A DNA stretch of 64,000 nt from Bradyrhizobium sp. RD5-C2 (GTDB lineage: Bacteria; Pseudomonadota; Alphaproteobacteria; Rhizobiales; Xanthobacteraceae). Numbering within the stretch: the first letter of the stretch is position 1; the number at the start of each line of letters is the position of its first letter. The position numbers and the translations under genes are program-made. The stretch is taken from positions 475,877-539,876 of the forward strand of contig NZ_BOVL01000019.1 of the NCBI RefSeq assembly GCF_019972155.1, read 5' to 3'. Under the pieces are notes generated by a model. The model did no database searches. It was not told where the DNA came from and saw nothing but the letters and a program-made list of their open reading frames with translations. Below, piece after piece: positions 12,151 through 63,047 of the stretch.

Positions 12151-13593
12151 ATGTCGGTCACGACGTCATTTCGGGCAGGACAGGGCATGCACCAGATCGT
12201 TTCGACGCGGGCGGAGACCTCCCGCCGCTGGTGGGTGCTTGCGATCGTGGTCGCCGCGCAGTTCATGTTCGGCGTCGATGCCTTCATCGTCAACGTCGCG
12301 ATCCCGACGATCGCGGCGGAGCTGCACGCGACGCCGGCGCAGATCGAGGCCGTGATCGCGATCTATCTGATCGCCTATGCCACGCTGGTGGTCACCGGCG
12401 GCCGGCTCGGCGACATCCATGGCACAAGGAACGTGTTCATCGCCGGCGTCGCGGGCTTTTCGGTGACCTCGCTGTGGTGCGGTCTCGCGCAGTCCGGACC
12501 CGAGCTGATCATCGCCCGGCTGGCACAGGGCGCGACGGCGGCGCTGATGGTGCCGCAGGTGCTGGCGACGCTGCATCTGCTGTTCTCCGATGCCGCCCGC
12601 GCACGGGCGTTCGGCATCTACGGCATCGTGCTGGGGCTCGCCGGCGTCACCGGATTTGCGCTCGGCGGCGTGCTGGTGACGCTCGATCTCGCCGGCCTCG
12701 GCTGGCGCGCGGTGTTCTTCGTCAACGTGCCGTTCGGCGTCATCATCATCGCAGCCGCGCTGAAGATCATGCCGACGGTGCCGCGCCGATCCGGCACGCG
12801 GCTCGATATCCCGGGCGCGATCGTGCTGTTTGCGGGTCTGTTGTGCCTGATCGGGCCGCTGCTGTTCGGTCACGATCTCAACTGGACGGCGTGGATCTGG
12901 CTGGTGATGGCTGCCGGTGTTGCGATCATCGCGGCCTTCGTGCGGCTCGAGCGCAGCGTCGCGCGCCGCGGCGGTATGCCGCTGATCGACTTGGCGCTGC
13001 TGTCCGATCGCGCCTTCATGCGCGGCCTGGTCGCGGTGTTTTTCTTCTTCTTTGCGAACCTGTCCTTCTACCTGATCATGACCATGTTCATGCAGAAGGG
13101 CTTGCAGATTCCGCCATTGCAGGCCGGGCTGGTGTTCGTGCCGCTGGCGCTGACCTTCGTGATCGCCTCGCGGCACAGCGGCATCCGCGCGAAGCATCGC
13201 GGCACGCTGGTGCTGATCGAGGGCTGCGCGCTGCAGGTCGTCGGACTCGGTGTGCTGGTCGTGACGGTTCAGGCGATCGCAGCGCCATCGGCACTGCTGC
13301 TCGCACTGGTGCTTGTCATCTTCGGCTACGGCCAGGGTCTGGTGATGGCGCCGCTGTCGAGCGCGGTGCTGTCGAGCGTGAAGCCTGCGAGCGCCGGCGC
13401 CGGCTCCGGTATGTATGGCACGACGACGCAGATCGGCAACGCAGCCGGCGTTGCCGCGATCGGCGCAGTGTTCTTCGCTGTCGAGAGCGCGACGTCAGCG
13501 CATCTGGCGCTCTATGCGGCATGCGCATTGTTTGGGCTGTCGATCATTATTTCAGCCGCATTTCTGTCATGGATGCGCCGCGCCACAGCGTGA
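12151..13593 (+). CDS. MFS transporter, DHA2 (EmrB/QacA) family
   Basis: The protein has 480 residues and about 14 hydrophobic segments, the usual count for DHA2 drug:proton antiporters. Motif A reads G-G-R-L-G-D-I-H-G-T-R-N near residue 85, and motif C-like G-L-A-G-V-T-G-F-A-L-G-G lies near 165. It is predicted to export toxic compounds across the inner membrane. No membrane-fusion partner (EmrA) or regulator adjoins it. The first roughly 25 residues before W-W-V-L-A-I-V-V are cytosolic; the Met at residue 13 is an alternative start. Confidence 0.88.
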   Translation: MSVTTSFRAGQGMHQIVSTRAETSRRWWVLAIVVAAQFMFGVDAFIVNVAIPTIAAELHATPAQIEAVIAIYLIAYATLVVTGGRLGDIHGTRNVFIAGVAGFSVTSLWCGLAQSGPELIIARLAQGATAALMVPQVLATLHLLFSDAARARAFGIYGIVLGLAGVTGFALGGVLVTLDLAGLGWRAVFFVNVPFGVIIIAAALKIMPTVPRRSGTRLDIPGAIVLFAGLLCLIGPLLFGHDLNWTAWIWLVMAAGVAIIAAFVRLERSVARRGGMPLIDLALLSDRAFMRGLVAVFFFFFANLSFYLIMTMFMQKGLQIPPLQAGLVFVPLALTFVIASRHSGIRAKHRGTLVLIEGCALQVVGLGVLVVTVQAIAAPSALLLALVLVIFGYGQGLVMAPLSSAVLSSVKPASAGAGSGMYGTTTQIGNAAGVAAIGAVFFAVESATSAHLALYAACALFGLSIIISAAFLSWMRRATA

Positions 13594-50735: not shown

Positions 50736-50782
50736 GATCTGAAGTGGGCTCGCGGGGCGCGCGGGCCGCGGAGGAATTCGCC

Positions 50783-51484
50783 ATGACCCTGTTGTATCCG
50801 CTGCAATCGCTTGCGGCCCATCCGGCGCGGCTGTCGCCGGACTATCGCTCCACCGTAAAGCGTTCGCCGCAGAAGCCGTTGATTCCGATGCGGCACACGC
50901 TCTCGGAATTGACCGGGCCGGTTTACGGCCATGAGACGGTGCGCGCGCACGACAACGATCTCACCATCCAGGCCAAGGGTGAGCCGCTCGGCGAGCGCAT
51001 CATCGTGCATGGACACGTGCGCGACGAGGACGGCCGCGGCGTGCCCAACACGCTGGTCGAGCTGTGGCAGGCCAATGCCTGCGGCCGCTACATCCACGTC
51101 GTTGACCAGCATCCGGCGCCGCTCGATCCGAATTTTACGGGCGCCGGCCGCACGCAGTCCGATGCATCCGGCTACTACAAATTCATCACCATCAAGCCGG
51201 GCGCCTATCCGTGGGGCAATCACCACAACGCCTGGCGTCCCGCCCATATCCACTTCTCGGTGTTCGGGCATTCCTTCATCTCGCGTCTGGTGACGCAGAT
51301 GTACTTCCCCGGCGATCCGTTGTTTCCGTTCGATCCGATCTTCAACTCGGTGACCGACGAGAAGGCGCGGGCGCGGATGATCTCCTCGTTTGATCTCGAC
51401 AACACCCAGCCGGAATGGGCGCTGTGCTACCGCTTCGATATCGTGCTGCGCGGCCGCAATGCCACGCCGATGGAGACCAAGTAA
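50783..51484 (+). CDS. pcaH: protocatechuate 3,4-dioxygenase beta subunit, copy 1
   Basis: The protein has 233 residues from ATG 50783 (GGAGG upstream). Fe(III) ligands Y103 (C-G-R-Y-I-H), Y142 (G-A-Y-P-W-G-N), H155 and H157 (P-A-H-I-H-F-S) match those of the Pseudomonas enzyme. It performs intradiol cleavage of protocatechuate to beta-carboxymuconate with PcaG. It differs from copy 2 (61743) at about 15 residues, mainly near the N-terminus. Confidence 0.93.
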   Translation: MTLLYPLQSLAAHPARLSPDYRSTVKRSPQKPLIPMRHTLSELTGPVYGHETVRAHDNDLTIQAKGEPLGERIIVHGHVRDEDGRGVPNTLVELWQANACGRYIHVVDQHPAPLDPNFTGAGRTQSDASGYYKFITIKPGAYPWGNHHNAWRPAHIHFSVFGHSFISRLVTQMYFPGDPLFPFDPIFNSVTDEKARARMISSFDLDNTQPEWALCYRFDIVLRGRNATPMETK

Positions 51485-51485
51485 C

Positions 51486-52082
51486 GTGTCACGTCCTGAT
51501 GGAATCACGCCCTCGCAGACCGTCGGCCCCTATTTCAAATACGGCCTGACCCCGAACGGCGAGTATGAATGGAACGACGCCTTCACCAACAATCTGCTCA
51601 CACCTGACGTCTCGGGCGAGCGCATCCGCGTCGAGGGCATTGTCTATGACGGCGACGGCGCCGTGATCCCGGACTGCATGCTGGAGATCTGGCAGGCTGA
51701 CAGTCAGGGCCGTTTCTCCGATCCGCAGGATGCACGCGCGCTGCCGAATTCCTCCTTCAAGGGTTTTGGCCGCTGCGGCACCGACAAGAGCGGCGCTTAC
51801 GCCTTCGACACCATCAAGCCGGGCTCAGTGCCTGACGCCGATGGCAAGCCGCAGGCGCCGCACATCCTGCTCGCGGTGTTCGCGCGCGGCATGCTGCTGC
51901 ACCTCTACACCCGGATCTACTTTGATGACGAAGCCGGCAACGCCGGCGATGCCGTGCTCGCATTGGTGCCGGCCGATCGCCGCGCCACCTTGATCGCCAG
52001 GCGCAAGGCAGGCTCCGGCAACACCTACACGTTCGACGTTCGCCTGCAGGGTGACAACGAGACTGTGTTCTTCGACGTCTGA
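51486..52082 (+). CDS. pcaG: protocatechuate 3,4-dioxygenase alpha subunit, copy 1
   Basis: The protein has 198 residues with a GTG start at 51486, one base after the pcaH stop, so translation is coupled. R-P-D-G-I-T-P-S-Q-T-V-G-P-Y-F opens the family fold, and L-E-I-W-Q-A-D-S-Q-G-R-F and H-I-L-L-A-V-F-A-R-G follow. The alpha subunit lacks iron ligands and completes the active-site cleft. It differs from copy 2 at about eight aligned residues. It converges with the SDR gene, 10 bases apart. Confidence 0.93.
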   Translation: MSRPDGITPSQTVGPYFKYGLTPNGEYEWNDAFTNNLLTPDVSGERIRVEGIVYDGDGAVIPDCMLEIWQADSQGRFSDPQDARALPNSSFKGFGRCGTDKSGAYAFDTIKPGSVPDADGKPQAPHILLAVFARGMLLHLYTRIYFDDEAGNAGDAVLALVPADRRATLIARRKAGSGNTYTFDVRLQGDNETVFFDV

Positions 52083-52092
52083 TCGGCCGCTC

Positions 52093-52968
52093 TCAGGTCG
52101 CGATGGCTGGCTTGAACACGGCAAGCGGTGCGGGATCGCGGCTCGGCGGCGGCGGGACCTTGCCGTCGATGTCGGTAAAGCCGTATTCGGCCGCGAGCTC
52201 CGAGGCGAGCAGGATCTGACCGCTCTTGGCCATCATCTCGGGATCGCCGGCGAGTGCGGCGACTGCGCGCCCGGCGAACAGCGGTGTCTCGCCGCGCTCG
52301 GCGATCAGTTTGGCGAGCGCCGGCGGCACCCGGTCGGGCTGTGCCGCAAGCTTCTCGCTCTTGATGTAGCCGGGCCAGATCGAGACCGCGGCAATGCCGA
52401 ACGGCTTCAGCTCATGCGCCATGTCGCGCGCCATCCGGTCGACGCCTGATTTCTGCACGCCGAACGGAACATTGAACGTGTACCTGACGCCGCCGCCCGA
52501 CGAGGTGTTGACGATCAGGCCGCGCGCCTGCGGCAGCATCAGCGGCACCGCGAATTGGCTGGCGACGAAATGCGAGCGCAGGCCGACGCGGTGCATGGTG
52601 TCCCACAGCGACGCCGGAACCTGCCAGAACGGCACATTGACCGGCATCACGTTCGGCGCCGCGAACACGTTGTTGACCAGCACGTCGAGCCGGCCGTGGT
52701 CGCGCCGGATCAGGTCGAACACCTCCTGCACCGAACCGTCGTCGGAATGATCGCACAGCAGGCCGATGCCTCGGCCGCCGGCCTCGTCGATCGCGGCGAT
52801 GGTCTCATCCAGCGAGCCGGGCCACTCCGATCCGCCGCTGTTGCGCGTGCGCGCCGTGACGATCACGGTCGCGCCGGCCTCGGCGAGACCGATCGCCACG
52901 CCCTTTCCAACCCCGCGGCTTCCTCCCGTCACCAGCGCAATGCGATCCTTGAGGCGTTCCTTGGTCAT
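52093..52968 (-). CDS. SDR family oxidoreductase (DHRS1-like)
   Basis: The protein has 291 residues. The nucleotide site is T-G-G-S-R-G-V-G-K-G, followed by a C-D-H-S segment, N-N-V-F-A-A and S-S-G-G-G-V-R-Y. The Tyr of the usual Y-x3-K pair is replaced by F-G-V-Q-K-S-G-V, with Y-T-F just upstream, a variation seen in DHRS1-like SDRs. A GGGAG lies before the ATG at 52968. It is divergent from the Rieske operon with a shared control region, so it probably acts on the oxygenase product or substrate. Confidence 0.82.
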   Translation of the reverse strand: MTKERLKDRIALVTGGSRGVGKGVAIGLAEAGATVIVTARTRNSGGSEWPGSLDETIAAIDEAGGRGIGLLCDHSDDGSVQEVFDLIRRDHGRLDVLVNNVFAAPNVMPVNVPFWQVPASLWDTMHRVGLRSHFVASQFAVPLMLPQARGLIVNTSSGGGVRYTFNVPFGVQKSGVDRMARDMAHELKPFGIAAVSIWPGYIKSEKLAAQPDRVPPALAKLIAERGETPLFAGRAVAALAGDPEMMAKSGQILLASELAAEYGFTDIDGKVPPPPSRDPAPLAVFKPAIAT

Positions 52969-52987
52969 GCGATCTCCCGATATGGCT

Positions 52988-52998
52988 TCTTCGGAAGA
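52988..52998. promoter_or_regulatory. secondary palindrome TCTTCGGAAGA in the SDR leader
   Basis: An 11-base palindrome matches the half-sites of the larger operator at 53012 without the central CTAG. It lies in the untranslated leader of the SDR gene, 20-30 bases before its start codon. It may be a weaker second binding site. Confidence 0.35.
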
Positions 52999-53002
52999 TA
53001 TC

Positions 53003-53055
53003 TTGACAATAATCTTCCTAGGAAGATATTAGACGCAGAACGTTGAAGGCGTCAA
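53003..53055. promoter_or_regulatory. divergent promoters with a central 16-bp palindromic operator
   Basis: Plus strand: TTGACA (53003-53008), 17-base spacer, ATATTA (53026-53031), reading into the Rieske genes. The perfect palindrome ATCTTCCTAGGAAGAT (53012-53027) fills the spacer. Minus strand: TTGACG (53055-53050), 18-base spacer, TAATAT (53031-53026), reading into the SDR gene; the two -10 boxes coincide. A repressor on the palindrome would block both. The same layout recurs at 56728. The MarR-family gene at 55984 is the likely ligand. Confidence 0.65.
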
Positions 53056-53071
53056 CCAGGGAGGTTTCGCG

Positions 53072-54295
53072 ATGGTCACCAGGGAAGAGAACGAATTGCT
53101 GTGCCGCGTCACGGGTGACGCGCCGATGGGACGCATGCTGCGGCAGCATTATTGGCTGCCCGCCGTGCTCTCGGTGCGCGTGCGCAAGGGCGAGGCGCCC
53201 GTCCGGGTCAAGCTGTTCGGCCGCAACTTCGTGGCGTTCAGGGGCAAGGACGGCACCGTCGGCTTCCTCGACGAGGCCTGTCCGCACCGCGGCGCGTCGC
53301 TGGCGCTGGCGCGGGTCGACGACTGCTCGCTGACCTGCCTGTTTCACGGCTGGAAGATCAATGCGCACGGCGAGGTGCTCGATGTTCCCAACGAGCCGAA
53401 CAACCCCAGGGAGTTCGCCAAGACCGTCAGGGCGAAAGCCTATCCGGTGCGGGAAGGCGCCGGGTTGCTCTGGGTCTGGCTCGGCGAGGGCACGGCGCCG
53501 CCCGCGCCCGACTTCGAGTGGATGGATCTGCCGCCGGACCAGGTTTACGCGGCCGGCATCGAGCTCAATGCCAACTGGCTGCAGGGCGTCGAGGCCACCA
53601 TCGATTCCTCGCATGTCGCGCTGCTGCACCAGAGCTGGACCGCGACATCGTCGACCGATTTCGGTGCCACCCGCGTCAACACCGAAGTCGGCTACGAGTT
53701 CGAGAAGAAGTCCTATGGCTTCCGCGCCGCGGCGCTGCGCACGGCGCCGGATGGATCGTGCCTCGCGCGCGTCACCGAGTTCGTGATGCCCTATTACGGC
53801 CTGATCGCGCCGATCTTCTCCGGACCGCAGCAGGATCGCACCGCGATCATCGCGGTGCCGATCGACGACGAGAACCTGATCCAGTGGTACATCTTCTATA
53901 ATCCGGAGAAGCCGGTGGATTCCTGGCGCAAGGTGCAGCGCGCCAACCAGTGGCCGATGGCCGGCGGCCTGCCGGGCGACCAAAGCACCAATTGGGGTCA
54001 GAACCGCCAGATCATGGACGCCGGCAACAGCACCGGCTTCCACGAAATCGTCATCGAAGATTTCGTGGTGATGGTTAGCATGGGCCCGATCGTCGACCGT
54101 TCGCAGGAATATCTCTGCTCGGCGGACCAGGCGATCGTCAGGGTGCGACGCCAACTGCTCGACGAGGTGCGCGGCTTCATGGCCGGCAAGGCGCCGAAGA
54201 GCGGCCAGAGCGAGACCATGTCCTACAAGGACATCCGTGCGGTCGGCGGCCGGCTCGCCTCCGCCTCCGAGGATTGGCGGCAGATTCCCCGTTGA
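53072..54295 (+). CDS. Rieske non-heme iron oxygenase, large (alpha) subunit
   Basis: The protein has 407 residues; AGGGAGG precedes the ATG. The Rieske centre is C70-P-H72 and C89-L-F-H92. The mononuclear iron site follows the E-A-T-I-D-S-S-H-V-A-L-L-H pattern, with H181 and H186 and bridging D178. The layout resembles the phthalate 4,5-dioxygenase / demethylase group that works without a beta subunit, consistent with none being encoded here. It would hydroxylate or O-demethylate an aromatic acid using electrons from the next two gene products. The substrate is unknown. Confidence 0.88.
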   Translation: MVTREENELLCRVTGDAPMGRMLRQHYWLPAVLSVRVRKGEAPVRVKLFGRNFVAFRGKDGTVGFLDEACPHRGASLALARVDDCSLTCLFHGWKINAHGEVLDVPNEPNNPREFAKTVRAKAYPVREGAGLLWVWLGEGTAPPAPDFEWMDLPPDQVYAAGIELNANWLQGVEATIDSSHVALLHQSWTATSSTDFGATRVNTEVGYEFEKKSYGFRAAALRTAPDGSCLARVTEFVMPYYGLIAPIFSGPQQDRTAIIAVPIDDENLIQWYIFYNPEKPVDSWRKVQRANQWPMAGGLPGDQSTNWGQNRQIMDAGNSTGFHEIVIEDFVVMVSMGPIVDRSQEYLCSADQAIVRVRRQLLDEVRGFMAGKAPKSGQSETMSYKDIRAVGGRLASASEDWRQIPR

Positions 54296-54358
54296 TCGGA
54301 AGCCCGGGCGCGGCCATGTCCGCGCCCATCCCTCCATTGGCCCCGGAGAGGTCATCCC

Positions 54359-54730
54359 ATGACTTTGCAAGAATCGACCTGGCACCATCTCTGCGCCGCC
54401 GCGAAACTGTCGGAAGGCGAGCCGCTGGGCTTCAAGCTGGGCGACCGCCGCGTCGCGCTCTACAAGGTCGACGACGACATCTTCGCAACCGACGACGTCT
54501 GCTCGCACGCGTTTGCGCTGCTGTCATCAGGATTTCTCGAAGGGCACGTGATCGAATGCCCGCTGCATGGCGCGATGTTCGATGTCCGTGACGGCAAATG
54601 CCGGTCGAGTGCCTACAAGGATATCGCGGCATTCAAGGTCGAGATCCGCGACGGCGAGATCTACGTGCAGCTTGACGGCGGCACCGTGCCGGAAGCCGCA
54701 GGCGTCGGCGGTGCGGACGTCAAACCATGA
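54359..54730 (+). CDS. Rieske [2Fe-2S] ferredoxin
   Basis: The protein has 123 residues. The cluster ligands are C48-S-H50 and C67-P-L-H70. The fold opens W-H-H-L-C-A-A-A-K-L-S-E-G-E-P. It carries electrons from the FAD reductase to the oxygenase. GGAGAGG precedes the start; the last four bases overlap the reductase start (ATGA). Confidence 0.9.
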   Translation: MTLQESTWHHLCAAAKLSEGEPLGFKLGDRRVALYKVDDDIFATDDVCSHAFALLSSGFLEGHVIECPLHGAMFDVRDGKCRSSAYKDIAAFKVEIRDGEIYVQLDGGTVPEAAGVGGADVKP

Positions 54731-55965
54731 GCGGCCTCGTTGTCGTCGGTGCGTCCTATGCCGGCCTTCAGGCGGCCCTCACCGCGCGCGACGCGGGCTA
54801 TGCCGAACCGGTGACCGTGATCGCCGACGAGCCCGCGCTGCCCTATCAGCGACCACCGCTGTCAAAGGATTTTCTGCTCGACGAGATCGCCGCGCAGGGT
54901 CTCCTGATGCACGACGAGGCCATTTTTGCCGACAACAAGATCGAGCTGCTTCTGGGCCACCGCGTTGTCGAGATCGATCGCAACGCAGGCCGGGTCGCGT
55001 TGGCCGGCGGCGCGACGTTCGACTTCGACAGCCTCGTCATCGCCACCGGCTCGCGTGCGCGGAAGATCGCAGTCTGCGGCGCCGACCTCGACGGGGTCTG
55101 CTATCTCAGGTCGATCGCCGATGCCGTCGACCTCAAGGCGCGGCTCGGCCAGGCCTCCGAGATCGTGATCGTCGGCGGCGGCTTCATCGGTCTCGAGGTT
55201 GCGTCCTCGGCAGCGAGGCTCGGCAAGCGGGTGACGGTGATCGAGGCGGCGTCGCGTTTGCTCGAACGGGCGGTGTCTCCGGTGGTGTCGCGCTTCCTGC
55301 TCGATGTTCATGCCCGGGCCGGCGTTGCCGTGAAGTTCGGTACGGCCGTTTCGGCAATCATTGGAGATAGCGGACGGATTGCGGCGGTCGAGCTGAACGG
55401 CGGCATCCGTCTTGGCGCGGATCTCGTCGTCGTCGGCATCGGCGGCCTCGCCAATTCTGAACTCGCCGCCGCCGCAGGGCTCGAATGCGCCAACGGAATT
55501 GCGGTCGATGAGTGTGGCCGGACGGCATGCCCCGACATCTATGCCGCCGGCGACTGCGCCAATCACTACAGCCGGTTTGCCGAGGGCTGGATCAGGTTGG
55601 AGTCGGTTCAGCACGCGCAGGACCAGGGAAGAACAGTCGGGCTTGCGATCGCTGATAGCCACGAGCCCTACGACAGCGTGCCGAGGTTCTGGTCGGATCA
55701 GCACGATCTCAAGCTGCAGACCGTTGGCCTCGCCGCGCGCAGCGACCGCACCGTGATCCGCGGCACGGTCGAAGCCGGCCGGTTCTCCGTGTTCAACTAC
55801 CGGCAGGGCAAGCTCGTCGCGGTCGACAGCATCAACAATCCCGGCGACCAGATGGTGGCGCGGCGCCTGATCGCAGCCGGCATTTCGCCGACACCGGAGC
55901 AGACCGAAGACGGCTCATGCGATCTCAAGTCGCTCCTGAAACGCGGTGACAAGGCAGTCGCCTAG
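54727..55965 (+). CDS. FAD-dependent ferredoxin reductase
   Basis: The protein has 412 residues. The FAD-binding V-V-V-G-A-S-Y-A-G-L-Q-A is at the N-terminus, Y-Q-R-P-P-L-S-K-D-F-L follows, then the NAD-binding I-V-I-V-G-G-G-F-I-G-L-E-V and the second FAD motif I-Y-A-A-G-D-C-A-N. It is the NAD(P)H-oxidising part of the three-component system. It terminates 18 bases before the end of the convergent MarR gene. Confidence 0.92.
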   Translation: MSGLVVVGASYAGLQAALTARDAGYAEPVTVIADEPALPYQRPPLSKDFLLDEIAAQGLLMHDEAIFADNKIELLLGHRVVEIDRNAGRVALAGGATFDFDSLVIATGSRARKIAVCGADLDGVCYLRSIADAVDLKARLGQASEIVIVGGGFIGLEVASSAARLGKRVTVIEAASRLLERAVSPVVSRFLLDVHARAGVAVKFGTAVSAIIGDSGRIAAVELNGGIRLGADLVVVGIGGLANSELAAAAGLECANGIAVDECGRTACPDIYAAGDCANHYSRFAEGWIRLESVQHAQDQGRTVGLAIADSHEPYDSVPRFWSDQHDLKLQTVGLAARSDRTVIRGTVEAGRFSVFNYRQGKLVAVDSINNPGDQMVARRLIAAGISPTPEQTEDGSCDLKSLLKRGDKAVA

Positions 55966-55983
55966 TGTTGCAGGCAGCGGCAG

Positions 55984-56583
55984 CTAGTCCGCTGCCGCAA
56001 GCCGGCCGGACTTCTTCAGCGCCTTCACGGTTCTGACGGCGAGCAGCTTGCGCAGGCAGCGGTCGAGCATCGCGAGCTCCGCCTTGGTGAGCCCGCTCGC
56101 CTCGGTCACGCCCTCAACCACCCTCGCGACCTCGGCAATGCCGCGGTCGGCGGTCGCAAGACCCTTGGCGGTAAGGCGGACCAGCTCCGAACGGCCATCG
56201 TCGCTGGCCGAGACGCGCAGGACGAAGCCGCCTTCCTGGAGCCGCGCCACGCGCTTGGTCATGGCGCCCGATGTGACGAGGAGCGCGCGAAATAGGTCGG
56301 TCGGGCGCAACTCGTACGGCTTCCCCGAGCGCCTGAGCGCGAGCAGCACGTAGAGCTCGCCGGTTTGCAGGCCGACGGCTTTCGCAATCTGCTGCAGACG
56401 CAGTTCGTGCAGCTGGTTGACGCGCTCCAGCCGCAGCAATGTGCAGGCCGCGGCGAGGTCGAGGTCCGGGCGCTGCGCCAGCCAGGCGGCTTCGATGTCG
56501 TCGTAGAGGGTGCTGTCGGGCGTGGGCTGCTTGATCGCAGGTTCGGCGCGGCGTGACACGCTGCTCTTCTTCATTCCTTCCAA
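55984..56583 (-). CDS. MarR family transcriptional regulator
   Basis: The protein has 199 residues. The winged helix-turn-helix is at about 75-140 (L-Y-V-L-L-A-L-R-R-S-G, L-R-P-T-D-L-F-R-A-L-L-V-T-S-G-A-M-T-K-R-V-A-R-L, then G-G-F-V-L-R-V-S-A-S-D-D-G-R). A longer than usual N-terminus of about 50 residues is present. MarR proteins bind palindromes and release on ligand, often an aromatic acid. It sits between two promoters carrying the same palindrome, so it is the best candidate repressor for both. Confidence 0.85.
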   Translation of the reverse strand: MEGMKKSSVSRRAEPAIKQPTPDSTLYDDIEAAWLAQRPDLDLAAACTLLRLERVNQLHELRLQQIAKAVGLQTGELYVLLALRRSGKPYELRPTDLFRALLVTSGAMTKRVARLQEGGFVLRVSASDDGRSELVRLTAKGLATADRGIAEVARVVEGVTEASGLTKAELAMLDRCLRKLLAVRTVKALKKSGRLAAAD

Positions 56584-56696
56584 TCCCCTCCCGGGCCAAC
56601 GGCGCCGGCATCATGCGTCGCGGCAATTTATCACCGTCGAACTGACGTGTCGCCCCGCAAGTGCCTCGTCTCGCTGCAAGCCCCACGTCTCGCGCC

Positions 56697-56720
56697 GTAA
56701 GCGGCCATTTGCCGCTTTAC
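56697..56720. promoter_or_regulatory. imperfect palindrome upstream of the binding-protein promoter
   Basis: GTAAGCGGC with GCCGCTTTAC (one-base bulge) forms a symmetric element 8 bases before the -35 box at 56728. It may be a site for a second regulator or a small hairpin. Support is symmetry only. Confidence 0.25.
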
Positions 56721-56727
56721 GTTCCAG

Positions 56728-56756
56728 TTGACATTTATCTTCCTAGGAAGAATATT
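56728..56756 (+). promoter_or_regulatory. promoter with palindromic operator before the orphan binding protein
   Basis: TTGACA (56728-56733), a 17-base spacer and AATATT (56751-56756) form a sigma-70-like promoter. The spacer carries TCTTCCTAGGAAGA (perfect over 56738-56751). Spacing and sequence copy the promoter at 53003, with the same 14-base core in the same place. Two such matched promoters on either side of the MarR gene argue for one regulon. Confidence 0.65.
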
Positions 56757-56783: not shown

Positions 56784-57968
56784 ATGCGCGGACTTCGCGC
56801 GATTGTCTTGTTCGCGGCTTTCGTGGCCGCCTGTGGCCCGGCCAAGGCGGCCGAGACCGAACTGATCCTCGGCCAGACCATGCCCTATAGCGGGCCGGCA
56901 TCGGCGCTGAGCGCGGTCGGCAAGGTGCAGACCCGCTATTTCCAGATGATCAACGATCGCGGCGGCATCAACGGCCACAAAGTGAAGCTGATCTCGCTCG
57001 ATGACGGCTACAGCCCGCCGAAGGCCGTGGAGCAGACCCGCAGGCTGATCGAGAACGACGAGGCGGTCGCGATCTTCGGCAGCATGGGGACGGCGCAGAA
57101 TGCCGCGGTCCAGAAATATCTCAACGCCAAGAAGATCCCCCAGCTGTTCGTGTTCGCGGCCAGCGAGCGCTTTGCCGATCCGAAGACGAGCCCCTACACC
57201 ATCTCGGGGATGACGTTGTTCAGCACCGAGGCTGCGATCTACGCGCGGCTGGTGGCCGAGCACACGCCGGCCTCGCGCGTCGCCGTGCTGTACCAGAACG
57301 ACGACTACGGCCGCGAGTATCTGCGCAGCTTCAAGGCCGAACTGGCCCGGCTCGATCCCAAGGCCGAGATCGTCGCGGCCTCGCCCTACGAGGTCACGTC
57401 GCCGACGGTCGATTCGCAGGTCGTTGCGCTCGCCAGCACCAATGCCAACGTCTTTCTCAATGCGTCGACCGGCAAGTTCACCTCGCAGGCGATCCGCCAG
57501 GCAGGTGAGCTTGGCTGGCATGCGCAGCAGTTCCTGCCGATCGGCAGCAACTTCGTGCCGACCATCCTCAAGCCGGCCGGGCTCGAAAACGCCAAGGGCG
57601 CGATCTCGGCGACGCCGACCAAGTCGGTCGGTGATCCCGAATGGGCCAACGATCCCGCTTATCTGGAGTGGCTGGCTTTCATGAAGAGATACTATCCCGA
57701 GGGGGATATCGAGGATCAGCTCAACTTCACCGGATGGAACGTCGCGGTCCTCATGACCAAGGTCATCGAGGCCTGCGGCGACGATCTGTCCCGGCAAAAC
57801 ATCATGAAGCAGGCGACCGCGCTGAAGAACCTTGCGCTTCCGGGCCTGATCCCGGGCATCACCGTCAACAGCAGCCCGGACGATTATCGCCTGATCACCT
57901 CGCTGCGGCCGCAGCGTTTCGACGGCGAGCGCTGGGTGCCGATATCAGGCGTCATGGCCGCGCAATGA
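56784..57968 (+). CDS. branched-chain-type ABC substrate-binding protein (MarR-regulon)
   Basis: The protein has 394 residues from ATG 56784 (AGGGAGGAG upstream). A lipoprotein-like signal is possible (F-V-A-A-C-G-P-A-K-A); otherwise cleavage follows A-K-A-A. The LivK-type fold resembles the paralogues at 30517 and 31980 (M-P-Y-S-G-P-A-S-A, G-G-I-N-G, S-P-P-K-A-V-E-Q). No permease or ATPase is adjacent. Regulated with the Rieske genes, it probably binds their aromatic substrate. Confidence 0.88.
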   Translation: MRGLRAIVLFAAFVAACGPAKAAETELILGQTMPYSGPASALSAVGKVQTRYFQMINDRGGINGHKVKLISLDDGYSPPKAVEQTRRLIENDEAVAIFGSMGTAQNAAVQKYLNAKKIPQLFVFAASERFADPKTSPYTISGMTLFSTEAAIYARLVAEHTPASRVAVLYQNDDYGREYLRSFKAELARLDPKAEIVAASPYEVTSPTVDSQVVALASTNANVFLNASTGKFTSQAIRQAGELGWHAQQFLPIGSNFVPTILKPAGLENAKGAISATPTKSVGDPEWANDPAYLEWLAFMKRYYPEGDIEDQLNFTGWNVAVLMTKVIEACGDDLSRQNIMKQATALKNLALPGLIPGITVNSSPDDYRLITSLRPQRFDGERWVPISGVMAAQ

Positions 57969-58002: not shown

Positions 58003-58980
58003 CTAGCGGCCGCGCCTAAGCTCCTCGGTGGCGCGCCGGAGCACCTCGTGAAGCCATTCGTGCGACGGTTCGCCCTCGACGCGCTCGTGCCACAGCAGCC
58101 GAACCTCCACGGGGGTCGTGGTGTAGGGCAGTTCATGGGTCGTGATCGCATGGGCCTGCTCGAGCGCCCGCGCCAGCGGCCGCGGGACGATCGCCGCCAA
58201 TTCGGAATCGATCAGCAGCGCGGGCAGGGCAAGGAAATGCGGCAGCGAGACCGCGATCCGTGGCGGCCGGTCGCTGTCGGCCAGCGCCCGTTCGAGCGCC
58301 GGGCGGTCGTACATCTCGGAACGTCTGGCGAGCCCACGCTCGGAGATGAAGCCGCCGATCGCGCCCTCCTGCTCGCCGCCGAAGGAGACGACGACCAGCG
58401 GCAAGCTCGCGAGCTTTGCCTTGTCGAGCCGGCCGAGCTTGCGCTTTTTGCCGACGATCAGCACGTCGTCATATTCGAACAGCAGCGCCGTGCGGAAGCG
58501 GCTCGGCGGCGACGAGAACACGCCGATGGCGACGTCGATGCGGCCGAGATCGATCTGCTCGGCAAGATCGATCCGCGTCACCGGCTTGATGGTGAGGTCG
58601 ATCGCCGGCGCTTCCCGGCTCAGGATCTTCAGCAGCGGCGGCGCCAGCACCATCGTGGTGAAGTCGTTGGCGGCGAGCGTGAACGGCTTGGTCGAGACCG
58701 CGGGCGCAAAGGTCGGCAACTCGACCGCGGCTTCCAGCGATCGCAGCGCCTGGCGCACCTGCGGCGCCATGGTCAGCGCGCGCGCCGTCGGCTGCATTCC
58801 GGTGGCGGTGCGGACGAACAGCTCGTCATCCAGCATCTCGCGCAGCCGCGCCAGCGAGTGGCTCACGGCGGATTGGCTCAGCGCGACCTTCTGGCTGGCG
58901 CGCAGCACGCTGCGCTCCTCCATGACGGCGTCGAACACCTTGAGCAGGTTCAGGTCCAGGGTCTTGAAGGAAACGGACAC
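58003..58980 (-). CDS. LysR family transcriptional regulator
   Basis: The protein has 325 residues. The N-terminal winged helix (9-66) reads L-D-L-N-L-L-K-V-F-D-A-V-M, S-V-L-R-A-S-Q-K-V-A-L-S-Q-S-A-V-S-H-S-L-A-R-L-R, followed by a periplasmic-binding-like ligand domain. It belongs to the NodD/PcpR-like group. It is divergent from the binding protein and pnb genes starting at 59212, so it is the probable activator of that operon; a LysR gene (pnbR) plays this role in Pseudomonas. Equivalence is inferred from position only. Confidence 0.85.
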   Translation of the reverse strand: MSVSFKTLDLNLLKVFDAVMEERSVLRASQKVALSQSAVSHSLARLREMLDDELFVRTATGMQPTARALTMAPQVRQALRSLEAAVELPTFAPAVSTKPFTLAANDFTTMVLAPPLLKILSREAPAIDLTIKPVTRIDLAEQIDLGRIDVAIGVFSSPPSRFRTALLFEYDDVLIVGKKRKLGRLDKAKLASLPLVVVSFGGEQEGAIGGFISERGLARRSEMYDRPALERALADSDRPPRIAVSLPHFLALPALLIDSELAAIVPRPLARALEQAHAITTHELPYTTTPVEVRLLWHERVEGEPSHEWLHEVLRRATEELRRGR

Positions 58981-59211: not shown

Positions 59212-60441
59212 ATGAATGCCTCAGTGCAATCGGACCATGGTGGCGCGTGCAAGTCGCTCGGGTTGGCGCTGGCGCTCATGATGCTCGCAGCGCCGGCGAT
59301 GGCGCAGAACGGGCCGGTCAGGCTCGGCGTGCTGACCGACATGTCGTCGCTCTACGCTGACAATGGCGGTCAGGGCTCGGTCGTCGCGGCGCAGATGGCG
59401 ATCGACGATTTCAAGGGCAAGGTGCTCGGGCGCTCGATCGAGATCGTCGCGGGAGATCACCAGAACAAGGCGGATATCGGTGCTGCGATCACCCGCCGGT
59501 GGCTGGAGAACGAGAACGTCGAGGCGATCCTCGACGTGCCGAATTCCGCGGTGGCGCTGGCCGTGCAGGGTATCACTCGTGACAAGAAGAAGCTGTTTCT
59601 CGCCACCGGCGCGGCCACCTCCCGCCTGACCGGCGACGAGTGCTCGCCGACCGGCATCCACTGGACTTACGACACCTACGCGCTGTCGCAGGGGACGACG
59701 AAAGCGATTTCGCGTCTCGGCGCCAAATCCTGGTTTTTCGTTTCAGCCGATTATTCGCTCGGGGTGCAGCTCGAGGCCGACAGCCGCAAGGTGATCGATG
59801 CCACCGGCGGCAAGGTCGTTGGCGCCGTCAAGCACCCGATCAATACGCCCGATTTCTCGTCCTTCCTGTTGCAGGCGCAGGCCTCCAAGGCGGACGTGAT
59901 CGCGCTCGCTGACGCCGGCGGTGACTTCGTCAACGCCGTGAAGCAGGCGGGGGAGTTCGGTGTGACGCGCGAGCAGAAGCTTGTCGGCCTGCTCGTCTTC
60001 ATCAACGACATTCACAGTCTTGGGCTCCCGAGCGCGCAAGGCCTGATGCTCAGCTCGGCCTTCTACTGGGATCTCAACGACGAGACGCGGGCCTGGTCGA
60101 AGCGCTTCATTGAGAAGACGAAGAAGGTGCCGTCGATGATCCATGCCGGCACCTATGGCGCAGTCATGCACTACCTCAAGGCGGTCGAGGCCGCCGGCAC
60201 GCTCGATGGGCCGACCGTTGCCGCGAAGATGCGCGAATTGCCTGTCAATGATTTCATGACCCGCAACGGCAAGATCCGGCAGGACGGCCGGCTGGTCCGC
60301 GACATGTATCTGTTCCGCGTCAAGTCGCCGGAGCAGTCGAAGTACCAGTTCGACTACTACCAGCTCCTAGCCACCATCCCCGGGGAAGAGGCCTTCAGAC
60401 CGATGGAGGACGGCGGATGTCCGCTTCTGAAGAAGTCGTGA
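59212..60441 (+). CDS. ABC-type aromatic-acid-like substrate-binding protein
   Basis: The protein has 409 residues from ATG 59212 (GGGAGGA upstream); the much longer upstream open frame is antisense to the LysR gene and is rejected. A late signal peptide (A-L-M-M-L-A-A-P-A-M-A) is followed by a type I binding fold (V-R-L-G-V-L-T-D-M-S-S-L-Y-A-D-N-G-G). This Y-x-D-x-x-G group includes proteins binding aromatic acids. It overlaps the nitroreductase gene by 25 bases. Confidence 0.85.
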   Translation: MNASVQSDHGGACKSLGLALALMMLAAPAMAQNGPVRLGVLTDMSSLYADNGGQGSVVAAQMAIDDFKGKVLGRSIEIVAGDHQNKADIGAAITRRWLENENVEAILDVPNSAVALAVQGITRDKKKLFLATGAATSRLTGDECSPTGIHWTYDTYALSQGTTKAISRLGAKSWFFVSADYSLGVQLEADSRKVIDATGGKVVGAVKHPINTPDFSSFLLQAQASKADVIALADAGGDFVNAVKQAGEFGVTREQKLVGLLVFINDIHSLGLPSAQGLMLSSAFYWDLNDETRAWSKRFIEKTKKVPSMIHAGTYGAVMHYLKAVEAAGTLDGPTVAAKMRELPVNDFMTRNGKIRQDGRLVRDMYLFRVKSPEQSKYQFDYYQLLATIPGEEAFRPMEDGGCPLLKKS

Positions 60442-61145
60442 TCGAGCAGGGCGCAACGTGCGAGCTTGCGCGCAATCCGATCGACGAGGTGATCGCCGGC
60501 CGGCTCTCTTGCCGTGAGTTCTCCGGCAGTCCCGTCTCGCGATCGACCATCGAGCAGATCCTGCGTGTGGCGCGCTTTGCGCCGAGCGGCGCCAACATCC
60601 AGCCCTGGCACGTCTACGTGCTGGCAGGCGCAGCGAAGGCTGAAGTGTCGGCTGCGCTTCTGCACGCGTATGAGACCGAGCCGAACGAGCACGTCTCCGA
60701 ATATCAATACTACGCCAGCGCGTTTCCGGAGCCGTATCTTGGTCGCCGCCAGACGTTCGGGCGATTGTTCTATGACTCGCTCGGGATCGCACAGAGCGAC
60801 ATGGCGGCGCGGAGCAGGCAGACCGCGAAGAACTTTGCGTTCTTCGGTGCGCCGGTTGGATTGATCGTCACCATCGACCGTCGCCTCGCGATGGGCAGCT
60901 GGCTCGATCTCGGCATGTTCATCCAGAACGTGATGCTGGCGGCGGTCGGCCGCGGACTGCAATCATGTCCGCAGGAAACCTTCGCCAAGTACCACCGGAT
61001 ATTGCGCCCGGCCCTGTCGATCCCCGCGGAGCAGATGGTGGCCTGCGGGATCTCGATGGGACATCCCAAGCATCAGGCGAGAGCGCGGCTGATGCCGCGT
61101 GCAGATCTGGAGGCGTTCGCCTCCTTCAAGGGTTTCGAGAACTAG
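60417..61145 (+). CDS. pnbA: nitroreductase, probable 4-nitrobenzoate reductase
   Basis: The protein has 242 residues. It contains R-x-S-C-R-E-F near residue 30, A-P-S-G-A-N-I-Q-P-W-H for FMN binding, and a late G-R-G-L-Q-S-C-P-Q-E. These are nitroreductase-family motifs. GGAGG lies 7 bases before the ATG, so this start is preferred over a GTG at 60438. It reduces a nitroarene to a hydroxylamine with NAD(P)H. The PnbB-like gene next to it makes 4-nitrobenzoate the best substrate; biochemical proof is lacking. Confidence 0.75.
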   Translation: MSASEEVVIEQGATCELARNPIDEVIAGRLSCREFSGSPVSRSTIEQILRVARFAPSGANIQPWHVYVLAGAAKAEVSAALLHAYETEPNEHVSEYQYYASAFPEPYLGRRQTFGRLFYDSLGIAQSDMAARSRQTAKNFAFFGAPVGLIVTIDRRLAMGSWLDLGMFIQNVMLAAVGRGLQSCPQETFAKYHRILRPALSIPAEQMVACGISMGHPKHQARARLMPRADLEAFASFKGFEN

Positions 61146-61159
61146 AACAGGAGACAGCC

Positions 61160-61699
61160 ATGGGAAGCCGTGAGCAGCTTATCGAACGCAGCATTCCGTT
61201 TCTGCGCGAAGTCAAGGACATGACGCCGAGCGCGGCGATGGAGCGATGGCTCAACGAGACCTATGGAGAGGGCAGCGCGCTCTACCAGGATCTCGCGCGT
61301 CTCATCAAAATGGGGGTCGAGGAGGGCTGGGCGGCGAACCAGGAAGTCGAAGGCCCGAACTATCGGCGCAGCCGCATCCTCGAGCCGGTCCCGGAAACGT
61401 TCCAGTTCAGCATCACCGCAGTCTACATGAATAGCACCGATCCGCGTCGCTTCAAGGACGAGGACGATCACGACGTGCTGCGCGGGCAATATCACGGCCA
61501 TCCCTATGGCGAACTCAACCTCGTCGTTCCCCTCGACAAGGGCGCCGAGTTGAAGGGGTTGCAGGGCTGGCAAGGACCGGGCTGGACCGCGCCGGATCCC
61601 GGCAGCCGGCATTATCCGGAAGTGAGGGGCGGCGCTGTCATCGCGCTGTTCTATTTGCCGGCCGGGCGCATCTCGTATGACTTCAAGGCGCCGGCCTGA
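61160..61699 (+). CDS. pnbB: probable 4-hydroxylaminobenzoate lyase (PnbB/DUF4863)
   Basis: The protein has 179 residues. M-G-S-R-E-Q-L-I-E-R-S-I-P-F-L-R-E-V-K-D-M-T-P and a cupin-like core Y-H-G-H-P-Y-G-E-L-N-L-V-V-P-L, then H-Y-P-E-V-R-G-G-A-V-I-A-L-F-Y-L-P-A-G-R-I, fit the DUF4863/hydroxylaminobenzoate lyase family. That enzyme converts 4-hydroxylaminobenzoate to protocatechuate and ammonium. It lies 14 bases after pnbA and 43 before pcaH copy 2, which would consume the product. The context is very strong; identification is from memory of the family. Confidence 0.75.
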   Translation: MGSREQLIERSIPFLREVKDMTPSAAMERWLNETYGEGSALYQDLARLIKMGVEEGWAANQEVEGPNYRRSRILEPVPETFQFSITAVYMNSTDPRRFKDEDDHDVLRGQYHGHPYGELNLVVPLDKGAELKGLQGWQGPGWTAPDPGSRHYPEVRGGAVIALFYLPAGRISYDFKAPA

Positions 61700-61742: not shown

Positions 61743-62444
61743 ATGACGTTGATCTATCCGGTCACTTCGAACAGCGTTCATCCTGCGCGGCTGTCTCCGG
61801 CCTACCGGAGCGCGCTCAAGCGCTCGCCGCAGAAGCCGCTGATCCCGATGCGGCACACGCTCTCCGAGCTGACCGGGCCGGCCTATGGTCACGAGACGGT
61901 GCGCGCGCACGACAATGATCTCACCATCCAGGCCAAGGGTGAGCCGCTCGGCGAGCGCATCATCGTGCACGGTCATGTGCGCGACGAGGACGGCCGCGGC
62001 GTCCCGAATACGCTGGTCGAGCTGTGGCAGGCCAATGCCTGCGGCCGCTACATCCACGTCGTCGACCAGCATCCGGCGCCACTCGATCCCAACTTCACCG
62101 GCGCCGGCCGCACACAGAGCGATGACAAGGGCTACTACAAGTTCATCACCATCAAGCCGGGCGCGTATCCCTGGGGCAATCACGACAATGCGTGGCGTCC
62201 CGCCCATATCCACTTCTCGGTGTTCGGCCATTCCTTCGTCTCGCGTCTGGTCACGCAGATGTATTTCCCCGGCGATCCGCTGTTCCCGTTCGATCCGATC
62301 TTCAACTCGGTGACCGACGAGAAGGCGCGGGCGCGGATGATCTCGTCGTTCGATCTTGAGAACACCCAGCCGGAATGGGCGCTGTGCTATCGCTTCGATA
62401 TCGTGCTGCGCGGGCGCAACGCCACGCCGATGGAGACCAAATAA
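61743..62444 (+). CDS. pcaH: protocatechuate 3,4-dioxygenase beta subunit, copy 2
   Basis: The protein has 233 residues from ATG 61743. The same Fe ligands as copy 1 are kept (Tyr103, Tyr142, His155, His157). About 94% of residues are identical. The changes fall in the N-terminal 25 residues (V-T-S-N-S-V for L-Q-S-L-A-A) and in surface positions such as D148 for H148. It sits directly downstream of pnbB, so nitrobenzoate carbon reaches ring cleavage within one operon. Confidence 0.93.
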   Translation: MTLIYPVTSNSVHPARLSPAYRSALKRSPQKPLIPMRHTLSELTGPAYGHETVRAHDNDLTIQAKGEPLGERIIVHGHVRDEDGRGVPNTLVELWQANACGRYIHVVDQHPAPLDPNFTGAGRTQSDDKGYYKFITIKPGAYPWGNHDNAWRPAHIHFSVFGHSFVSRLVTQMYFPGDPLFPFDPIFNSVTDEKARARMISSFDLENTQPEWALCYRFDIVLRGRNATPMETK

Positions 62445-63047
62445 GTGTCGAACCCGCGTCCTGATGGAATCACGCCCTCGCAGACCGTCGGCCCCTATTT
62501 CAAATACGGCCTGACGCCGAACGGCGAGTACGAATGGAACGACGCCTTCACCAGCAATCTCCTGACGCCTGACGCCTCGGGCGAACGCATCCGCGTCGAG
62601 GGCATCGTCTATGACGGCGACGGCGCCGTGATCCCGGACTGCATGCTGGAGATCTGGCAGGCTGACAGCCAGGGCCGTTTCTCCGATCCGCAGGATGCGC
62701 GCGCGCTGCCGAATTCCAGCTTCAAGGGCTTCGGTCGCTGCGGCACCGACAAGAGCGGCTTCTATTCGTTCGACACCATCAAGCCGGGCGTGGTGCCTGA
62801 CGCCGACGGCAAGCCGCAGGCGCCGCACATCTTGCTCGCGGTGTTCGCGCGCGGCATGCTGCTGCACCTCTATACCCGGATCTATTTCGACGACGAAGCC
62901 GGCAACGCCGGCGATGCCGTGCTCGCATTGGTGCCGGCCGACCGCCGCGCCACCTTGATCGCCAGGCGCAAGGCGGGTGCGGGCAACGTCTACACGTTCG
63001 ATGTCCACCTGCAGGGCGACAACGAGACCGTGTTCTTCGACGTCTAG
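62445..63047 (+). CDS. pcaG: protocatechuate 3,4-dioxygenase alpha subunit, copy 2
   Basis: The protein has 200 residues with a GTG start immediately after the pcaH stop. It is two residues longer at the N-terminus than copy 1 (N-P inserted) and about 96% identical, with changes such as G-F-Y-S-F for G-A-Y-A-F and G-A-G-N-V for G-S-G-N-T. It ends the pnb-pca run; a strong hairpin follows at 63099. Confidence 0.93.
   Translation: MSNPRPDGITPSQTVGPYFKYGLTPNGEYEWNDAFTSNLLTPDASGERIRVEGIVYDGDGAVIPDCMLEIWQADSQGRFSDPQDARALPNSSFKGFGRCGTDKSGFYSFDTIKPGVVPDADGKPQAPHILLAVFARGMLLHLYTRIYFDDEAGNAGDAVLALVPADRRATLIARRKAGAGNVYTFDVHLQGDNETVFFDV

Follow-up and report, generated by a model that had tools for sequence, protein, structure and literature searches.

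What does a MarR-family regulator control when its gene lies beside those of a Rieske oxygenase, and what kind of substrate would such a set of genes serve? We have analyzed this question for a locus in Bradyrhizobium sp. RD5-C2 (contig NZ_BOVL01000019.1, positions 475,877 to 539,876 of the forward strand). This whole stretch of 64 kb, taken from a genome of 8.26 Mb, is called the window here, and positions are counted from its first base. An earlier sequence-only reading had proposed that the MarR protein represses five genes, encoding a Rieske oxygenase, its ferredoxin and reductase, a short-chain dehydrogenase/reductase (SDR) and a binding protein, which together would take up and oxidise one aromatic acid. 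Our analysis makes it probable that the locus is a small dedicated catabolic regulon, in which MarR would act on palindromes within promoter spacers, would be released by an aromatic ligand, and would control genes for uptake and Rieske oxygenation. The comparative evidence points to a likely conserved repressor-operator regulon, which would represent a new form of aromatic catabolism under MarR control. The literature search returned no description of this regulon and no occurrence of TCTTCCTAGGAAGA, most subscription papers being outside its coverage.

Promoters and operator sites

The features of the regulon are as follows.

53003 to 53008, plus strand: TTGACA, -35 of the oxygenase promoter
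53012 to 53027, no strand: operator 1, the perfect palindrome ATCTTCCTAGGAAGAT within the promoter spacer; putative binding site
53026 to 53031, plus strand: ATATTA, candidate -10 of the oxygenase promoter, by consensus only
56728 to 56733, plus strand: TTGACA, -35 of the binding-protein promoter
56737 to 56752, no strand: operator 2, ATCTTCCTAGGAAGAA, within the promoter spacer; putative binding site
56751 to 56756, plus strand: AATATT, candidate -10 of the binding-protein promoter, by consensus only
52984 to 52999, minus strand: second, degenerate palindrome ATCTTCCGAAGAAGCC, a possible SDR-side operator in only part of the genus; its assignment to the SDR promoter is putative
52093 to 52968, minus strand: SDR-family protein, divergent from the oxygenase, with Phe instead of the catalytic Tyr of YxxxK
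53072 to 54295, plus strand: Rieske oxygenase, single alpha subunit (Rieske and LigXa_C domains)
54359 to 54730, plus strand: Rieske-type ferredoxin
54727 to 55965, plus strand: flavin adenine dinucleotide (FAD)-dependent ferredoxin reductase, AndAa/HcaD-like
55984 to 56574, minus strand: MarR-family repressor, PecS/MftR-like; the ATG at 56574 is preferred over the TTG at 56583
56784 to 57968, plus strand: periplasmic binding protein of the branched-chain amino acid type (Peripla_BP_6)

The gene families agree with those given in the sequence-only reading; its layout is refined in that MarR is on the minus strand and outside the oxygenase operon. The MarR and binding-protein genes are divergent, so operator 2 lies between them. 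The reading had also described two matched promoters, and this description stands: TTGACA occurs at both 53003 and 56728, the 17-base spacers (ATAATCTTCCTAGGAAG and TTTATCTTCCTAGGAAG, respectively) hold an identical TCTTCCTAGGAAG at equal offset, and both -10 regions are AT-rich. With up to two mismatches allowed, the 13-base core has five matches in the window, where 0.46 are expected, and none of 100 shuffles reached five. These matches represent three places, namely the two palindromes, each counted on both strands, and positions 52986-52998 (two mismatches). In the whole genome the 16-bp operator is matched twice at 0-1 mismatch, never at two and four times at three; a reversed control pattern of the 16-mer gave four matches at up to three mismatches, equal to the operator's four at three. 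The two window sites are the only ones in the genome with two or fewer mismatches. A palindrome spread over many unrelated genes, which the earlier reading had named as refuting its proposal, is thus not what this genome shows.

That reading also placed a palindrome over the -10 of a divergent SDR promoter, and here it needs correction. The main operator lies upstream of the SDR -35, not on its -10, and the SDR side has a degenerate palindrome of its own. The latter lies 4 bp after a minus-strand TTGTCA (53009-53004), which shares bases with the oxygenase-promoter TTGACA; no good -10 for the SDR promoter was seen at this first site. By eye, the degenerate palindrome is present in the window and in loci L056-L062, and not in L063-L067. 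A short inverted repeat, GCGGCCATTTGCCGC, is found at about 56703-56717, upstream of operator 2, and is similar by eye in several orthologous loci.

Co-occurrence of operator, regulator and oxygenase

Operator, MarR, oxygenase and PnbB (discussed below) were counted in a sample of 195 Bradyrhizobium genomes. The operator (0-1 mismatch) is present in 20 genomes, a MarR orthologue (at least 71% identity) in 13 and an oxygenase orthologue (E of 1e-110 or better) in 13. The two proteins occur in the identical 13 genomes, all of which carry the operator, compared with 7 of the 182 others (Fisher p 1.2e-15, kinship ignored). Two of these seven matches (G068 and G150) adjoin a MarR paralogue of 35-38% identity and two (L070 and L072) are inside predicted open reading frames (ORFs); L069, L073 and L074 are the other three. 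One regulon-bearing genome, G031, has an extra perfect site (L068) at the end of a predicted ORF.

The named loci closest to the window oxygenase belong to Bradyrhizobium species. All 16 named loci with an oxygenase of at least 66% identity (L083-L098) also encode MarR, SDR, ferredoxin and binding protein and have at least one site at two or fewer mismatches; ten of the 16 are the same records as loci already counted. Neither MarR nor a site at two or fewer mismatches was found with the 11 relatives of the oxygenase that have 41-47% identity (L099-L109), though three of these are on short pieces. The neighbours were inspected for nine of these and represent other gene settings, as they do for a relative on a Rhodococcus plasmid (46%); none of these settings gave a substrate name. 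At a greater distance, oxygenase relatives scoring 1e-60 or better occur in 18 of 385 genomes sampled from the class, the window's own scoring 5.8e-285 and the next (G444) 1.9e-121. TTGACA together with the site is found in three of 198 genomes of the family: that of the window, G312 and G324.

Conservation of the sites and of gene order

Sites 1 and 2 were tabulated in 22 rows each. An exact TTGACA stands 3-5 bp before site 1 in 20 rows, with one mismatch in another; before site 2 it is exact at that distance in 18 rows, with one mismatch in three and two in one. For comparison, 0.0125% of window positions have an exact TTGACA 2-5 bp upstream. Mismatches in the sites themselves number 0-3 for site 1 and 1-4 for site 2.

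Oxygenase, ferredoxin, MarR, binding protein and SDR are all at the locus in the 13 genus genomes, the binding protein of G140 being in two pieces. Eleven of the 13 gave a reductase match, with the gene displaced in L065-L067; in L066 the displaced gene has its own site, without TTGACA. L067 has one site just before an azoreductase-like gene and another, with TTGACA, to which no gene was assigned. Beyond sites 1 and 2, operator copies near azoreductase-like genes were seen at 13476 and 13640 of L067 (family search) and at 2010 of L081 (by eye). Cupin-like genes, also recognised by eye, follow the SDR in L059, L061, L082/L096 and L098.

The set is also kept outside the genus, in a Methylobacteriaceae metagenome-assembled genome (MAG; L091), in other genera of the family to which the window belongs (L081 and L082) and in two Variovorax (L095 and L134). 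In both Variovorax loci the genes form two runs with MarR between them. One run contains the binding protein, two ATPases, two permeases and the SDR, so that a complete ABC transporter joins the set (in L095 its branched-chain amino acid (LIV) type was judged by eye from translations); the other contains oxygenase, ferredoxin and reductase. A variant site precedes each run at the same promoter position. A cupin-like gene follows the reductase in L095 (by eye) and L134.

The regulon part of the earlier proposal is well supported by comparative evidence, namely by co-occurrence, by sites kept despite changed gene order and by the variant sites of Variovorax; repression and release by a ligand we infer. 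Several points weigh on the other side. Site conservation is partly the result of shared ancestry. Site 1 of L091 has no TTGACA, site 2 has three mismatches in L056 and four in L064, and the site-2 -35 elements of Variovorax have one and two mismatches. Within each locus the tabulated site was chosen because it resembles the operator. A pattern containing TTGACA retrieved rows L081 and L082, whereas the other rows were retrieved via protein. No reductase match was found in L063 and L064, nor a site directly upstream of the displaced reductases of L065 and L067. Finally, autoregulation of MarR is no more than a possibility, operator 2 lying about 160 bp before the MarR start.

The regulator

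The MarR protein scores 36 bits against Pfam MarR_2 (cut-off 27). Its structure model is of low confidence (pLDDT, the predicted local distance difference test, 58.9), and the 50 matches listed for it are mostly named MarR-family proteins. The closest solved relatives by sequence are MftR (8ylf, 1.7e-27) and PecS (8ylh, 8.9e-27). All 15 orthologues keep the helix-1 Trp of these proteins, as expected of the PecS/MftR/UrtR subfamily, and also an Arg of PecS and MftR. The Asp common to MftR, PecS and the 2fbk chain, which we take to be HucR, is Tyr or His in all 15. The Asp shared by PecS and MftR binds urate. Because it has been lost here, urate is unlikely to be the MarR ligand.

The palindromes resemble PecS sites. 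PecS sites are of the type TATCTT-N6-AAGATA. A report on Vibrio vulnificus PecS (PMC6391409) gives the site TATCTTTATATTAAGATA, together with 26 predicted sites in which conservation is strongest over the first six base pairs of either 9-bp half. The outer six bases of operator 1 agree with this V. vulnificus site at 5/6 and 6/6 positions, and those of operator 2 at 6/6 and 4/6; the centre differs. Among 17 loci of more distant MarR paralogues in the genus (L039-L055), 11 have a palindrome (A/G)TCTT-N6-AAGA(T/C), with other centres, within 400 bp of the MarR match, and six have none. In the window this pattern matches operator 1 only.

The oxygenase and the SDR

The solved chains nearest to the oxygenase are phthalate and isophthalate dioxygenases; its predicted structure (pLDDT 30.6) was not used. 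The ligands of a Rieske non-heme iron oxygenase, C70, H72, C89, H92, H181, H186 and D330, are present in 18 of 18 sequences, D330 presumably being the iron-binding Asp. Phthalate dioxygenase (PDO) anchors phthalate via S182, R207 and R244 (PMC10511449, PMC12445078). In the aligned oxygenases the S182 position is Val or Ile in 18/18, while Arg is found at the R207 position in 17/18 and at R244 in 18/18. Since the two carboxylate-binding Arg positions are mostly kept, the alignment suggests a carboxylated substrate. The claim of one aromatic acid as substrate is therefore plausible, given the phthalate-dioxygenase-like enzyme, the two Arg positions and the branched-chain-amino-acid-type transporter of Variovorax. 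The binding protein has no solved relative at an E of 1e-20 or better.

The SDR reads FGVQK at the YxxxK motif in the window and in 21 orthologues from alpha- and betaproteobacteria (22/22), where DHRS1 has YGVGK. As Phe replaces the catalytic Tyr, a role as a plain dihydrodiol dehydrogenase appears doubtful.

PnbB and the probable end of the pathway

Beyond the binding-protein gene the order is LysR, second binding protein, nitroreductase, PnbB and PcaHG. The following genes are linked to the regulon and have no operator.

58003 to 58980, minus strand: LysR-family regulator
60417 to 61145, plus strand: nitroreductase, PnbA-like by position
61160 to 61699, plus strand: PnbB, 4-hydroxylaminobenzoate lyase
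61743 to 63047, plus strand: protocatechuate 3,4-dioxygenase beta and alpha subunits (PcaHG)

The segment 58003-63047 resembles a cluster of the 4-nitrobenzoate pathway. Two similar copies of pcaHG, at 50744-52082 and 61743-63047 and about 10 kb apart, flank the regulon.

PnbB is present in 54 of the 195 genus genomes, comprising 13/13 with the regulon and 41/182 others (p 1.8e-8, kinship ignored). For 11 of the 13 it falls within the stretch that was inspected (16-20 kb, or else the window), in several different arrangements; in G312 and in B. liaoningense SZCCT0399 it is present, not near. A nitroreductase of at least 57% identity is found in 12 of the 13 regulon genomes and in G312, and not in G025. 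In Variovorax J22P271, LysR (54% to that of the window), PnbB (65%) and nitroreductase (43%) form a group about 17 kb away from the oxygenase, which extends the proximity of the two sets of genes to a betaproteobacterium; this Variovorax group occupies positions 1-2155 of L136. The link to PnbB is weakened by its absence from two regulon-bearing MAGs, one of Hyphomicrobiales (G324, identical with L096; 99% complete) and one of Methylobacteriaceae (3.7 Mb, completeness not given), and from the 2.48-Mb VAI-C plasmid record, the VAI-C chromosome not being part of the search.

PnbA and PnbB convert 4-nitrobenzoate via 4-hydroxylaminobenzoate to protocatechuate (PMC9590159). From this route and the PnbB association, a path ending in protocatechuate is likely. 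A bolder proposal makes the oxygenase an arylamine N-oxygenase, or an enzyme for some related N-substituted benzoate, whose product 4-hydroxylaminobenzoate PnbB would turn into protocatechuate. This would be an aerobic route for compounds like 4-aminobenzoate, with a PecS-type repressor of changed ligand and an SDR-fold protein reacting without the catalytic Tyr. We regard it as a long shot.

Alternative explanations

The palindrome might instead serve a different regulator, such as the LysR protein of 58003-58980 or an unlinked factor, with MarR a bystander. The position of operator 2, not close to the MarR start, would fit such a case. It is nevertheless unlikely in view of the 13/13 co-occurrence of site and MarR, the retention of MarR at the locus in Variovorax, the TATCTT half-sites bound by a relative of this MarR, and the similar palindromes close to MarR in 11 of 17 distant paralogue loci. 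The locus might also be a urate- or purine-responsive system of the UrtR type that also controls an oxygenase, since PecS and MftR are the closest solved relatives, the helix-1 Trp and the Arg are kept, and MftR and several PecS are reported as urate binders (PMC6391409, PMC6963729). The replacement of the Asp by Tyr or His in every orthologue, and the lack of any recognised purine gene among the co-regulated genes, make this very unlikely.

On the enzyme side, a true phthalate-type dioxygenase with the SDR as its dihydrodiol dehydrogenase deserves somewhat more weight than these, and still we think it improbable: the nearest solved chains and the Arg at the R207 and R244 positions agree with it, while the S182 position is never Ser and the SDR always lacks the catalytic Tyr. 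Degradation of the auxin indole-3-acetic acid by an iad-type locus is known in Bradyrhizobium and Variovorax and likewise combines a MarR protein with a Rieske oxygenase and a binding protein (PMC9613470, PMC10374108). The same sources give iad loci alpha and beta oxygenase subunits (IadD/E) and a flavin mononucleotide (FMN)-type reductase (IadC); the window locus has a single alpha subunit, a Rieske ferredoxin and an FAD reductase, and an auxin locus was rejected on this enzyme architecture. MarR structures connected with indole-3-acetic acid or iad loci match only at 5.8e-5 to 4.7e-4, far below MftR (1e-23) and PecS (1e-22), and the matches obtained at 0.001 do not include the B. japonicum MarR (7kym), so that this explanation has next to no likelihood.

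Proposed mechanism

For the dedicated MarR regulon, the site positions, conservation and gene families suggest the following course. A PecS/MftR-like MarR dimer would bind (A/T)ATCTTCCTAGGAAGA(T/A) in the -35/-10 spacer of both the oxygenase and the binding-protein promoter and block RNA polymerase from there. The SDR promoter has a -35 overlapping the one for the oxygenase; it may be covered from operator 1 and, in some members of the genus, from a second operator as well. The repressor would be released by a small aromatic compound, probably the substrate itself or one of its early products rather than urate, upon which the uptake protein, the three-component alpha-only Rieske oxygenase system and the unusual SDR would be made together. 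The product would most likely end in protocatechuate. The locus offers a regulator, a well-defined operator and a self-contained group of genes and, in the repressor ligand, a handle on the substrate of a Rieske oxygenase in Bradyrhizobium and Variovorax. It also suggests the recruitment of a PecS-type regulator, with a changed ligand pocket, for aromatic catabolism.

Comparison with known systems

The regulator shares with PecS/MftR (UrtR-type) systems the closest solved sequences, the helix-1 Trp, candidate half-sites of the TATCTT type and divergent genes. It differs from them in the replaced Asp, in the inner operator bases (CCTAGG at this locus) and in its linkage to an oxygenase set, PecS and MftR being linked to reported efflux pumps (pecM, mftP). 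In the iad locus (IadR/MarR_73), also known in Bradyrhizobium and Variovorax, a Rieske oxygenase is under the control of a MarR protein and accompanied by a binding protein, but its oxygenase architecture is different and its MarR comes from another branch. The phthalate and isophthalate dioxygenases of Comamonas testosteroni KF1 (7fjl/7v25 and 9ina) are the best match to the oxygenase, with one kind of subunit and the two Arg positions mostly kept in common; unlike them, the window locus has a separate Rieske ferredoxin and FAD reductase, and Ser182 is not kept. The nitroreductase, PnbB and PcaHG close by in the window recall the pnb pathway from 4-nitrobenzoate to protocatechuate. In contrast to the regulon, this pnb-like cluster has its own LysR and no operator at two or fewer mismatches, and is linked to the oxygenase by genome association only.

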